A DNA stretch of 37,517 nucleotides from Halothiobacillaceae bacterium (lineage in GTDB: Bacteria > Pseudomonadota > Gammaproteobacteria > Halothiobacillales > Halothiobacillaceae). Positions 1-36,323 of the stretch are shown one piece after another. The notes under the pieces were generated by a model, which had not been told where the DNA came from, did not search any database, and saw only the letters and a program-made list of their open reading frames with translations. Position numbers and translations under genes: made by a program. The stretch is from the NCBI GenBank assembly GCA_006212015.1, contig SDAY01000008.1, positions 1-37,517 on the forward strand. The letters are read 5' to 3'. Position 1 is the first letter of the stretch. Each line of letters opens with the position of its first letter.

Positions 1-88
1 GGTGCGCAGGCCGCCCGGTGCGAGCCGCAGCAAACTCCAGAGCTTCAACCTGATCTTCGCGGCTGAGCGAAAACCAGGACTCAACCAT
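1..88 (-). CDS. AbiEii-family toxin, nucleotidyltransferase (N-terminal fragment, cut by window edge)
   Basis: Only the first 29 codons are present; the gene runs off the left edge. The ATG at 88 overlaps the end of the antitoxin gene by 8 bp, the usual bicistronic layout of AbiE systems. The visible peptide starts MVESWFSLSRED and continues to TGRPAH, which resembles the N-terminus of AbiEii/AbiGii toxins, where a conserved segment around LEKDIWV would follow just outside the window. Family knowledge: AbiEii toxins are nucleotidyltransferases that block growth and give phage resistance. The catalytic residues are not in view, so the call rests on context and a short N-terminal resemblance. 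Confidence 0.6.
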   Translation of the reverse strand, partial: MVESWFSLSREDQVEALEFAAARTGRPAH

Positions 89-720: not shown

Positions 721-804
721 ACTGCAATTTGCCATGGCCTGTCAAGAGCTGTGGGGGTTGCGCAGGCTTTCCGTAGTTTCCTCTGGAAGCCAATGCTGCA
801 ATCC

Positions 805-842
805 AACCTTTTGATTCGTCCGCGCGTAACCCTTTGATCCGT
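805..842. repeat. Pair of near-identical 15-bp direct repeats
   Basis: AACCTTTTGATTCGT (805-819) and AACCCTTTGATCCGT (828-842) differ at 2 of 15 positions and start 23 bp apart. They lie between the antitoxin promoter and the structured segment downstream of ssrA. Two copies could be protein-binding sites, but nothing in the sequence shows a function. Confidence 0.4.
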
Positions 843-863
843 ATGGGGCTGCGTTGCGGCCTT

Positions 864-987
864 TGCGGACTTCGGGTCAGTTCCAGGGAGCGAGGCCGGA
901 GCGAGGAATGGCCGGGAGAGAGTGGAATGTGGCCCGGAACGGCCACTTTGGGTGATGGGCGAAGTCCGCAGGCTTCCGCGGGAAGCC
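864..987. other. Nested inverted repeats downstream of ssrA; possible structured RNA or small palindromic element
   Basis: This is the main content of the 382-bp gap between the antitoxin start and tmRNA. An 11-bp perfect inverted repeat (864-874 with 960-970, core GCGGACTTCG/CGAAGTCCGC) encloses a hairpin GTGGCC-CGGAAC-GGCCAC (929-946). It is followed directly by a second hairpin GGCTTCC-GCG-GGAAGCC (971-987), and the next strong hairpin is the ssrA terminator, which also has a T-run on the plus strand. No convincing ORF or promoter was found here. It could be a plus-strand small RNA, a miniature palindromic element, or island debris. Confidence 0.3.
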
Positions 988-1021
988 CCAACGGCACGCG
1001 GGAACCGGCGCGATCGGGCAG

Positions 1022-1053
1022 AAAAAAACCCAACCGATAAGGGTTGGGTTTTT
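1022..1053 (-). terminator. Rho-independent terminator of ssrA
   Basis: AACCCAACC-GATAA-GGTTGGGTT forms a 9-bp stem. On the minus strand it is followed by seven T residues and lies 7 bases beyond the tmRNA CCA end. The plus strand also has a five-T run after the stem, so it may terminate in both directions. Confidence 0.85.
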
Positions 1054-1059
1054 GGTAAA

Positions 1060-1425
1060 TGGTGGAGGTGGGGGGAGTTGAACCCCCGTCCGCAAGCCCT
1101 CCGCTGTTGGCGCTACATGCTTAGTATCGTCATTTGGTTTTAACCGCGCAGCCTCCGACGGACAGGATGCAACTCGGCGAGCCCTAAGGTTTTAGCCTCG
1201 GACTTTCGGGCAAAGTCCTCGGCGATTCTGTAATGGATGACCCCTGTATGGCCTTGCGGCCTCCGGACTTACAGACAAGAACCGGTCAGGAGCCCAGCCG
1301 GGTTAAGCGGCCAGGGAGTATACGTCGTCGTTGGCGTATATTTTTTTGCGGCGGTTTAACGAGGTCTTCCGCACCTCGGCATGCTCCTCGAGCTTTGCAA
1401 CCCACGTCGAAGCCAGGTCACCCCC
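1060..1425 (-). ncRNA. ssrA: Transfer-messenger RNA (tmRNA)
   Basis: This 366-nt one-piece tmRNA rescues stalled ribosomes. The 5' end reads GGGGGTGACCTGGCTTCGAC and the 3' end carries a T-arm (GTTCAACTCC type) and an encoded CCA at 1062-1060. The acceptor stem GGGGGTG pairs with CACCTCC and keeps the third-pair G-U that alanyl-tRNA synthetase reads. The internal tag ORF at 1335-1303 ends with two alanine codons and TAA. A promoter lies just upstream at 1439-1467 and a strong terminator just downstream. The 3' end is a frequent attachment site for islands, and an AbiE pair lies on that side. Confidence 0.96.
1303..1335 (-). other. tmRNA proteolysis-tag reading frame
   Basis: Eleven codons from the resume codon GCC to TAA encode ANDDVYSLAA. 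With the alanine delivered by charged tmRNA the tag is AANDDVYSLAA. The terminal LAA is the known ClpXP degradation signal; DDV and S replace the ENY and A of the E. coli tag. Confidence 0.93.
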
Positions 1426-26256: not shown

Positions 26257-26988
26257 TCAGGCAGCGGACTCGCTGACCTCGACGAAATCATCGCCGCCGA
26301 CTGTGACAGTAGCCTTGGCTTCCTCGATGGAATCCGCCACGGCGGTCACGTAGAGCTGGATGGCGCGAATGGCGTCGTCGTTGCCCGGGATGATGTAATC
26401 CACGCCCTTCGGGGAGCTGTTGGTATCGACCACGGCGATCACGGGAATGCCGAGCTTGTTGGCCTCGGAGATGGCGATTTGCTCGTGCTCGACGTCGATG
26501 ATGAACAGGGCGTCCGGCAGACGCTCCATGTCCTGGATGCCGCCCAGGCTGCGATCGAGCTTTTCCATCTCGCGGGACAGGTCCAGGGCTTCGCGCTTGT
26601 TCACACGCTCGAAACTGCCGTCCTTGGACATGGTCTGCAGGGTCTTCAGACGACGCACGGACTGCTTGACGGTACGGAAGTTGGTCATCATGCCGCCGAG
26701 CCAGCGGTGGTTGACGTAAGGCATGCCGCAACGCTCAGCCTGCTCGCCCATGGTCTCGCGGGCGGCGCGCTTGGTGCCGACGAACAGGATGCTGCCGCCA
26801 TTGCCCGCGACCTTGCCGATGAAGTTCAACGCATCGTTGAACATCGGCACGGTCTTTTCCAGGTTGATGATGTGGATCTTGTTACGATCGCCGAAGATGT
26901 ACGGGGCCATCTGCGGGTTCCAGTAACGGGTCTGGTGACCGAAGTGGACACCCGCTTCCAGCATTTGACGCATGCTGACTTGAGCCAT
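26257..26988 (-). CDS. rpsB: 30S ribosomal protein S2
   Basis: Component of the small subunit, needed for S1 binding. Begins [20 protein letters not shown] and contains [48 protein letters not shown] and [14 protein letters not shown], all standard S2 signatures. Length is 243 residues (241 in E. coli). The ATG at 26988 has AGAGG 9 bases upstream; a longer open frame to 27186 is leader sequence. First gene of the rpsB-to-fumC minus-strand series. Confidence 0.97.
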
Positions 26989-27019
26989 TTGTATATACCT
27001 CTTGGGGTTGGGCCTCCGC

Positions 27020-27080
27020 GCACCCCGCCGGCGACCCGCCAGCCTGGAATGGAACATCAGGCTGGCAAGGCACCCCGCCG
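27020..27080 (-). promoter_or_regulatory. Structured leader of rpsB
   Basis: In the 260-bp gap between rpsB and divergent purB, a 9-bp hairpin (27038-27066, GCCAGCCTG with CAGGCTGGC) is flanked by two copies of GCACCCCGCCG (27020-27030 and 27070-27080). It lies 32-92 bases upstream of the rpsB start. S2 represses its own mRNA through a leader structure in E. coli and relatives; whether this is the same element cannot be decided by eye. Confidence 0.4.
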
Positions 27081-27188
27081 AGCGGATGATGGTGCGCGTG
27101 TGGATTAGGGTTTCACCGCAGCGGCCATCCGCGCGGCGCGTGCATTTAACCACAACTCGAACCGCGATGCCATGCAGCGGCGTCATGA

Positions 27189-33938: not shown

Positions 33939-36323
33939 TCAGTCACGCTGCGGACCCGGTGCGATCACCTCGCGCTGGCCATTGGGCTGCAGCGGACCGA
34001 CCACGCCCGCGCGTTCCATGTCCTCCATCAGCCGCGCGGAGCGGTTGTAGCCGATCTTCAGGCGACGCTGGACATAGGAAATCGAGGCCTTGCGCGATTC
34101 GAGCACGATGGCGACCGCCTGATCGTAGAGCGGATCACTCTCGCCGCCTTCGCCGTCCGCGCCCGGCGCGGGCTTCTCGCCCGGCAGGGTGATGGACTGC
34201 TCGTCCAGCAGGCCCTCGATGTAACGCGGCTCGCCTGCGGCCTTGAGCGCCTCGACCACCTTGTGCACCTCCTGGTCGGAGACAAAGGCGCCATGCACGC
34301 GCATGGGCAGGCCGGTGCCGGGCGGCAGATAGAGCATGTCGCCATGCCCCAGCAGGGCTTCCGCGCCCATCTGGTCGAGAATGGTGCGCGAGTCGATCTT
34401 GCTCGACACCTGGAAGGCGATCCGGGTCGGGATGTTGGCCTTGATCAAGCCGGTGATCACGTCGACCGAAGGCCGCTGGGTGGCGACGATCAGGTGGATG
34501 CCGGCCGCGCGTGCCTTCTGCGCGATGCGGGCGATCAGCTCTTCCACCTTCTTGCCGACCACCATGATCATGTCGGCGAACTCGTCCACCACGATCACGA
34601 TATGCGGCAGGGTCTCGAGCTCGGGCGCGGGCAGATCCGGGTCCAGCGCCTCGGCATGGCTGTAGAGCGGATCGCGGATCGGCTGGCCCGATTCGCGCGC
34701 CTCGCGCACCTTCTTGTTGAAGCCCGCGAGGTTGCGCACGCCCAGCGCGGCCATCAGCCGGTAGCGGCGCTCCATCTCGCCCACCGCCCAGCGCAGGGCG
34801 TTGGCGGCCTCCTTCATGTCGGTCACCACCGGCGCGAGCAGGTGCGGGATGCCCTCGTAGATCGACAGCTCCAGCATCTTCGGGTCGATCAGGATCAGGC
34901 GAACTTCATCGGCGGTCGACTTGTAGAGCATCGACAACAGCATGGCGTTGACGCCGACCGACTTGCCCGAGCCCGTCGTGCCCGCGACCAGAAGATGCGG
35001 CATGCGCGCAAGATCCGCCACGATCGGCTCGCCGGCAATGTCCTTGCCCAGCGCGATGGCGACCGGCGAGGTCGTGTCGCGGTAGGCCTTGGAATCGATG
35101 ATTTCAGAGAATGCAATCACCTCGCGCTGGGCATTGGGCACCTCGATCCCCACGGTCGACTTGCCGGGAATGACCTCGACCACGCGCACGCTGATCATCG
35201 CCAGGCTGCGGGCCAGATCCTTGGAGAGGTTGCTGATCTGGCTGACCTTCACTCCGGCGGCGGGTTCCAGCTCAAAGCGCGTGATCACGGGGCCCGGCTG
35301 GGCAGCGACCACGCGCGCCTGCACGCCAAACTCCTGCAACCGCTCCTCGATGAGGCGCGACATCGCATGCAAGGCCTCGGCGGTATAGCCACCCACACGC
35401 GGCCTTGGCGGATCAAGCAGGCAAATATCGGGCAGGGAAGAACCGGGTGCGGCGGCCTTGCCGCGGGATGAAGCGGGGCGGACTTTTGGCGGATACGCCG
35501 GTTTCGATGCGCTCCCGGCAAGTGCCGCCTCGGCCTCCGGCCAAGGCGCCGACGGGGCCGCCTTCGCCGGAGCGGCCGCGTCTTCGCTGTTCCACGGAAG
35601 GGTCGACGCAACGGGTGCGACATAGGCCGTGACCGGCACGACCGCGGGCTGAACGGCGGGCGCATCCCGCAGCCCCGAAAACTGGCCATCCGTCTGGCGC
35701 AACGCACCCAGCCGGGTCGCAAGATTCAGCAAGCCGCCACCGACCCTTTCGAACAGCGCCATCCATGAAAAACCGCTGTAGAGGGTGAACCCGGCAAGGA
35801 AGAACGCCAGCAGAATGACCGTCCCCCCGGCAAGACCAAGGACATTGGCCATCATGATGCCGATGGCCTGGCCGAGCACGCCCCCGCCCCCCATGGACAC
35901 ATCGGATTGCGGCCCCAGCAGATGCAGCCCGCACAAGGCCATCGCCGCGAGCCACGCCAGCAGAAACCCGACGGCCCGAACCACGAGCCAGTTACGCGAA
36001 AACAAGCCCTGCTCCCGCCGCCCCCGGAACACCAGCCAACCGGCCACCAGCAGGCTGATCGGCAAGACATAGGCGCCATAGCCGCCCAGGTAGATCAGCA
36101 GATCGGACAGCCAGGCGCCGAGCCAGCCGCCAAGATTGAGCGCCTCCCTTGCCGTCGATGCCTGCGACCAGCCCGGGTCACGGGTGTCGTAAGAAACCAG
36201 GGTCAGCAGCAGATAGGCCGCCGCGGCAACGAGGATGTAAAAAAGCCCTTCCCGAAGACTGCGCCCCAGATGGACGGTGAGTGTCGGGGCTGAGCGCCGG
36301 GCATTGGATTGAGATTGCTTCAA
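33939..36323 (-). CDS. ftsK: DNA translocase FtsK
   Basis: Divisome-linked DNA pump that clears and resolves chromosomes at the septum. The N-terminal 190 residues hold four to five membrane segments. A short Pro/Ala-rich linker (about 215-300) follows, then the RecA-like motor with Walker A GTTGSGKS (Lys454), Walker [12 protein letters not shown] and [21 protein letters not shown]. The C-terminal gamma domain ([39 protein letters not shown], in parts) reads KOPS sites. At 794 residues it has a much shorter linker than E. coli FtsK (1329). It starts at TTG 36323, a weak start with AGG 10 bases upstream. Confidence 0.96.

Follow-up and report, generated by a model that had tools for sequence, protein, structure and literature searches.

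A probable mobile-element end of an already known kind lies behind ssrA in a Halothiobacillaceae bacterium

The palindromic region behind ssrA in a 37,517-nt stretch of a Halothiobacillaceae genome (contig SDAY01000008.1; hereafter the window) is most probably a mobile-element end of an already known kind, widespread and with a recurrent cargo slot. We read it with high confidence as the attL-side end of an AcaML1-type ssrA-specific serine-recombinase element. The observations behind this assignment are the conservation of the region, its junctions and cargo, a linked recombinase in half of the places that could be tested, and homology to an AcaML1 end. Such an element would encode a large serine recombinase and a small partner protein, and would target the 3' end of ssrA or, sometimes, tRNA-Ala. 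Its joined ends would recombine with the CCACCA end of ssrA, the tmRNA staying intact, and integration would leave the first ~270 nt of the element (LE) behind ssrA, to which LE would supply a bidirectional terminator. The inverted repeat and purine-rich blocks of LE would most likely serve as binding sites for the recombinase complex or a directionality factor, and a variable cargo slot, predicted to hold an AbiE toxin-antitoxin pair here, would follow behind LE. The window copy was presumably inserted by such a recombinase. The relevant features of the window are as follows.

2 to 88, minus strand: AbiEii-like toxin gene, first 29 codons, truncated at the contig end; these 29 aa are 69-76% identical to the AbiEii homologs of L059 and L104
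81 to 683, minus strand: abiEi-like antitoxin gene (DUF6088/AbiEi; Pfam, PADLOC), cargo beside LE
790 to 1059, plus strand: LE, conserved ~270-nt mobile-element end abutting ssrA; homologous in at least 90 places including the window, 82 rows aligned
864 to 874, plus strand: left arm of the internal inverted repeat; mean identity 0.991 in 82 rows
883 to 934, plus strand: conserved purine-rich block between the arms, a possible protein-binding region; mean identity 0.91
960 to 970, plus strand: right arm of the internal inverted repeat; mean identity 0.955 in 82 rows
1024 to 1053, either strand: bidirectional terminator hairpin serving ssrA, within LE in other copies; 6 of 8 double-change pairs
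1056 to 1065, either strand: core TAAATGGTGG, overlapping the ssrA 3' end and equal to the 10 bases at both AcaML1 record ends
1060 to 1425, minus strand: ssrA (tmRNA), the integration target

The first-pass annotation of this DNA had singled out a perfect 11-bp inverted repeat with arms 85 nt apart, a hairpin enclosed by it, a second one directly after it, and an ssrA terminator with T-runs on both strands in a convergent layout, all of which are present. The repeat arms TGCGGACTTCG (864-874) and CGAAGTCCGCA (960-970) enclose an 85-nt loop; by eye, hairpin arms GTGGCC/GGCCAC (929-934/941-946) lie inside the repeat and GGCTTCC/GGAAGCC (971-977/981-987) directly 3' of its right arm. The terminator has a 12-bp stem (1024-1035/1042-1053) flanked on both sides by A/T runs and, like the palindromes, is convergent with ssrA. 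Allowing loops of 3-100 nt, the window has five perfect inverted 11-mers versus 1.97 (sd 1.45) in 30 Markov-1 sequences, and the 864/960 pair is near chance as a statistic because the terminator (two) and a single site at 35045 (two) supply four of these five. With the terminator included, the segment 855-1060 folds weakly better than shuffles on the plus strand (z -1.77; 10 of 200 as good) and clearly so on the minus strand (z -4.64; none of 200). The terminator resembles both that of AcaML1 and those of ssrA in two genomes of the same genus (G001 and G004), so it may be either element-borne or host-derived.

The block in which the repeat sits is conserved. A pattern derived from a first alignment matched at least 119 GTDB genome-contig stretches and 11 viral stretches. 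Among the 131 pattern places including the window, 90 pass blastn at E 1e-10 and 41 fail, and these counts are lower bounds. The first-pass annotation had counted the lack of a conserved copy in relatives against its proposal; such copies exist, homologs occurring in relatives and in at least 89 places besides the window, among them nine of the 11 viral-contig stretches. By hand count, and with titles listed for 80 of the at least 119 genome-contig stretches, 55 of the 58 titled homologs bear Proteobacteria names, mostly of Beta- and Gammaproteobacteria, and carriers include Nitrosomonas europaea, Methylococcus capsulatus, and Pseudomonas mendocina; three bins with non-Proteobacteria names (L095, L111, and L088) may be contaminated. 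In a set of 57 genomes (our own and 56 relatives), eight hold strong or partial copies (G000, G005, G008, G014 in part, G016, G045, G047, and G052), with LE identity of up to 85% across family borders, and the match of G004 is limited to the terminator. LE is single-copy in its own genome. Two copies occur on one contig (L071, L122) and also in G052.

Seven of the 90 places were excluded from the alignment by hand, leaving 83, and removal of L088, identical in sequence to L143, gave the final 82 rows. Homology begins at about window position 790 and stops at TGGTGG, the complement of the CCACCA of the target. Conservation is uneven in between: the stretch 935-957, into which the hairpin 929-946 extends, is variable (mean identity 0.70 in the 82 rows), and the consensus sequence of the second hairpin (971-987), GGCTTCCGCAGGAACCC, has, by eye, one pair broken. 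In the groups compared, median pairwise identity of LE is 0.84-0.88 at the nucleotide level and that of the linked proteins 0.67-0.96 at the amino acid level. LE and the linked proteins are thus conserved to a similar degree, which matches the expectation for a module spread by transfer; unusually strong selection on LE alone was rejected. At E 1e-5, blastn of the block found no match to the window copy among plasmids and phages and none to the L167 copy among E. coli genomes, and the AcaML1 end homology was reached solely through the recombinase. In the open-access literature searched, we recognized no publication describing the LE end.

In the window, LE joins ssrA exactly at its CCACCA end, with the core at 1056-1065. 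A scripted census of the right flanks of the at least 90 places recovered 44 intact tmRNA genes; by our hand split, 41 abut LE directly, beginning 186-199 nt from the motif, and three (L062, L157, and L166) lie further off, at 236-288 nt. At least seven more places adjoin an ssrA truncated at a contig end (eight in the script count, which includes L080, by eye a far-end flank and counted as such), at least four abut tRNA-Ala genes, two of these from identical sequence, and at least 18 abut recurrent flanks of four types (seven, five, three, and two places, plus L080) that look like the far ends of another element. Only type 1 was observed closing units, types 2-4 being recurrent flanks only, and type 3 matches, by eye, the other AcaML1 end. 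The script left 17 of the 90 right flanks unclassified, one of which (L132) appears to be a further ssrA cut at a contig end. The type-1 far ends (L072, L122, L183, L187, and others) share ~200 conserved nt with an internal piece resembling the ssrA T-arm (GGAATTGAACCCGCGTCCGCA). LE lies directly behind ssrA in four of the 34 relatives read (one masked), in addition to the window; the remaining relatives have a different sequence there, with a similar terminator in G001 and G004. No same-species empty site was found, as the displaced G045 flank used as query matched G045 itself and gave one weak hit.

LE is also linked to a recombination module. In L167, a variable cargo gene is followed by a 143-aa protein with no Pfam or NCBIfam match, a large serine recombinase, a DUF2924 protein, an unknown protein, and an IrrE-like protein; the domains of the recombinase are Resolvase, Recombinase, and zinc ribbon. 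Recombinase, small subunit, and DUF2924 protein are present in other LE-bearing loci. Among the matches listed, 30 places have at least 4.5 kb of flank, and the recombinase lies within 6 kb of LE in 15 of them, the small protein being present in 19 and AbiEii in nine. The 15 places with no recombinase within 6 kb argue against a simple autonomous-element reading. The recombinase was matched in six of the 57 genomes, three with LE (G008, G047, and G052) and three without it (G013, seven times; G033; and G004), and five LE-bearing genomes, including our own, have no recombinase match (G000, G005, G014, G016, and G045). In our own assembly, neither the recombinase (E 1e-30) nor the small protein (1e-3) was matched. 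Plasmids carry weaker recombinase relatives (11 records, best 62%). Two LE-free genomes deserve separate mention. Six of the seven recombinase-matching contigs of G013 do so at 55-58% and one, partially, at 40%, and by sequence these proteins may form an expanded sister group. At a contig end of G004, ~1.2 kb from ssrA, lies a distant, partial relative at 38% (L203; C207:3-632 and 1812-2171), perhaps marking another ssrA island.

The cargo side is consistent with a slot that is filled variably. Both abiEi and the abiEii-like gene of the window read away from LE; the abiEi start at 683 was picked by eye, the longest ORF spanning 81-806. Since the contig stops inside abiEii, 0.8 kb from LE, the far end is unseen, and a full AbiEii was not matched in our own assembly at E 1e-5; the element of the window may be a prophage, a cassette, or a remnant. 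The window fragment gave no alignment with the AbiEii of L108. Just upstream of abiEi, an inverted repeat visible by eye, TTGTCAGAA/TTCTGACAA (691-699/712-720), probably serves as an operator for abiEi autoregulation. Units can be followed in other genomes. In G045, ssrA, LE, and an AbiE pair are succeeded after 3.0 kb by a far end with CCACCAAT and a terminator-like hairpin, and no recombinase was matched in this genome. In G008, AbiEi and AbiEii share a 4.7-kb unit with a U49-like protein and a recombinase whose match begins only at residue 95. L170 and L143 contain units of ~2.5 and ~4.5 kb, respectively, with Fic-cluster genes; no recombinase was found in the former, and a 93-aa ORF of the latter clusters with recombinases in one comparison, the flank survey having found none. 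At the other extreme, ~73 kb, partly read in the middle, separate a far end (C4:51216) from LE and a tmRNA 3' fragment (C4:124541) in G052, a stretch that holds an 80% recombinase homolog free of stops and homologs of BrxC, PglX, and PglZ. Within it, these BREX genes lie in L198 (C4:56000-75000), where a UvrD-like helicase ORF sits between BrxC and PglX.

The closest known relative is Acidithiobacillus phage AcaML1 (JX507079), the best match of the recombinase in the phage collection. Its recombinase (57%), its DUF2924-family protein (42%), and its "recombinase small subunit", 33% identical to the LE-linked 143-aa protein, keep the order of the LE-linked module, and one end of its record aligns with the window LE over 73 nt at 79% identity (E 6.6e-12). 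The ten core bases of the window recur at both record ends, in CCACCATTTA, and a comparison by eye shows just one or two differences between the other end and a flank in L115 and L185. AcaML1 differs in that its homology to LE is weak beyond the last ~70 nt and in the cargo next to that end. The phage report describes AcaML1 as inducible and temperate and as integrated into the A. caldus tmRNA gene, the same target as for the window LE, with 10-bp repeats and a size of 72 kb in the text and 59,363 in a table (PMC3826726).

This AcaML1-type assignment was weighed against other explanations of the block. The first-pass annotation had proposed a small RNA, in which case LE would specify a structured plus-strand transcript that runs toward tmRNA and stops at the terminator common to both. 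The strong sequence conservation of LE, a terminator that can serve the plus strand, the low plus-strand folding energy (z -1.77), and two of the eight double-change pairs that fall outside the terminator (columns 75-198 in one sequence and 153-160 in five) speak in its favor, but the 11-bp arms lack compensatory change, all 11 pairs being kept in 54 of the 82 rows and broken in 28, the inner hairpins are not kept as stems, and LE is no more conserved than the linked proteins. Over the 82 copies, the RNAalifold covariation term is small (-0.76), with the other six double-change pairs in the terminator. Nor was a sigma-70-like site found in the interval 790-1060 or an Rfam match in LE, tmRNA and t44 being the only families reaching the gathering score in the window. 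A small RNA therefore appears unlikely. The t44 match itself (27007-27120, minus strand, 51.3 bits) overlaps the start of an ORF at 26257-27186 (minus strand), presumably encoding ribosomal protein S2, of which it is probably the leader. It had further been stated that no ORF explains the region: ORFs do cover it, and the statement holds insofar as no frame is open in all copies. A protein-coding LE was rejected on this ground (a single frame is open in no more than 51 sequences), and its identity by codon position (0.892/0.864/0.860) lacks clear periodicity.

The alternative first-pass suggestion, a miniature element, was right in pointing to mobile DNA and wrong in taking the arms for termini. 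A MITE bounded by the 11-bp repeats would account for a perfect inverted repeat 85 nt apart and for patchy presence across relatives, but conservation extends far past both arms, the boundary is TGGTGG, and the block is single-copy in its own genome, where the search proposed for the 11-bp termini returned one further 11-mer occurrence, on another contig; we give this explanation hardly any credence. Only slightly more plausible, and still very improbable, is a native host sequence kept by descent downstream of ssrA. It fits the direct contact with ssrA in 41 of the at least 90 places and the similar terminator in G001 and G004, yet copies adjoin tRNA-Ala and other flanks, presence is patchy, two copies share a contig (L071, L122) and two also occur in G052, and a homologous end exists in a phage.

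The Methylococcus capsulatus prophage Bath-R1 adjoins ssrA and has AcaML1 as its nearest reference phage, and the available excerpt of that report mentions no conserved end (PMC12924245). We found LE at ssrA in M. capsulatus Texas (L103).

SCC elements, whose target is rlmH rather than ssrA, likewise rely on a large serine recombinase, and the L167 recombinase has distant similarity to CcrB (133 bits). Its classification as CcrA, CcrB, or CcrC was rejected, as this score compares with a CcrB cut-off of 900 and those for CcrA and CcrC were lower. A study of Dehalococcoides ssrA islands describes SCC cassettes as lying in tandem at one gene, at its 3' end; these islands themselves stand in tandem behind ssrA with the serine recombinase DsiB and its smaller partner DsiA, some lacking integration genes (PMC3146451). 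As far as that text goes, these islands differ from the LE elements in phylum, in their 20-bp repeats, in that DsiA is itself a small serine recombinase, and in that dsiB overlaps attL (PMC3146451), whereas ~270 nt of noncoding LE and the cargo lie between in the elements reported here.

Beyond the assignment of the block, we tentatively put forward a cassette-chromosome system of Proteobacteria, a proposal that, taken as a whole, falls somewhat short of probable. Units of ~2.5-5 kb, defined by LE and far ends and without a complete recombinase of their own, might constitute toxin-antitoxin or Fic cassettes that depend on AcaML1-like elements or prophages for movement in trans and accumulate as tandem arrays behind ssrA, next to large autonomous units, e.g., the ~73-kb BREX-bearing stretch of G052.

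LE provides a searchable landmark: on the ssrA side, it marks a hotspot of integration that is widespread and where the neighboring genes often serve defence or are toxin-antitoxin genes (AbiE and Fic, with BREX in one large stretch). If the cassette proposal were true, LE would be the recognized end that enables units to share a recombinase. Should short units indeed move in trans, Gram-negative bacteria would possess an SCC analogue at ssrA, with serine recombinases that have a defined natural target.
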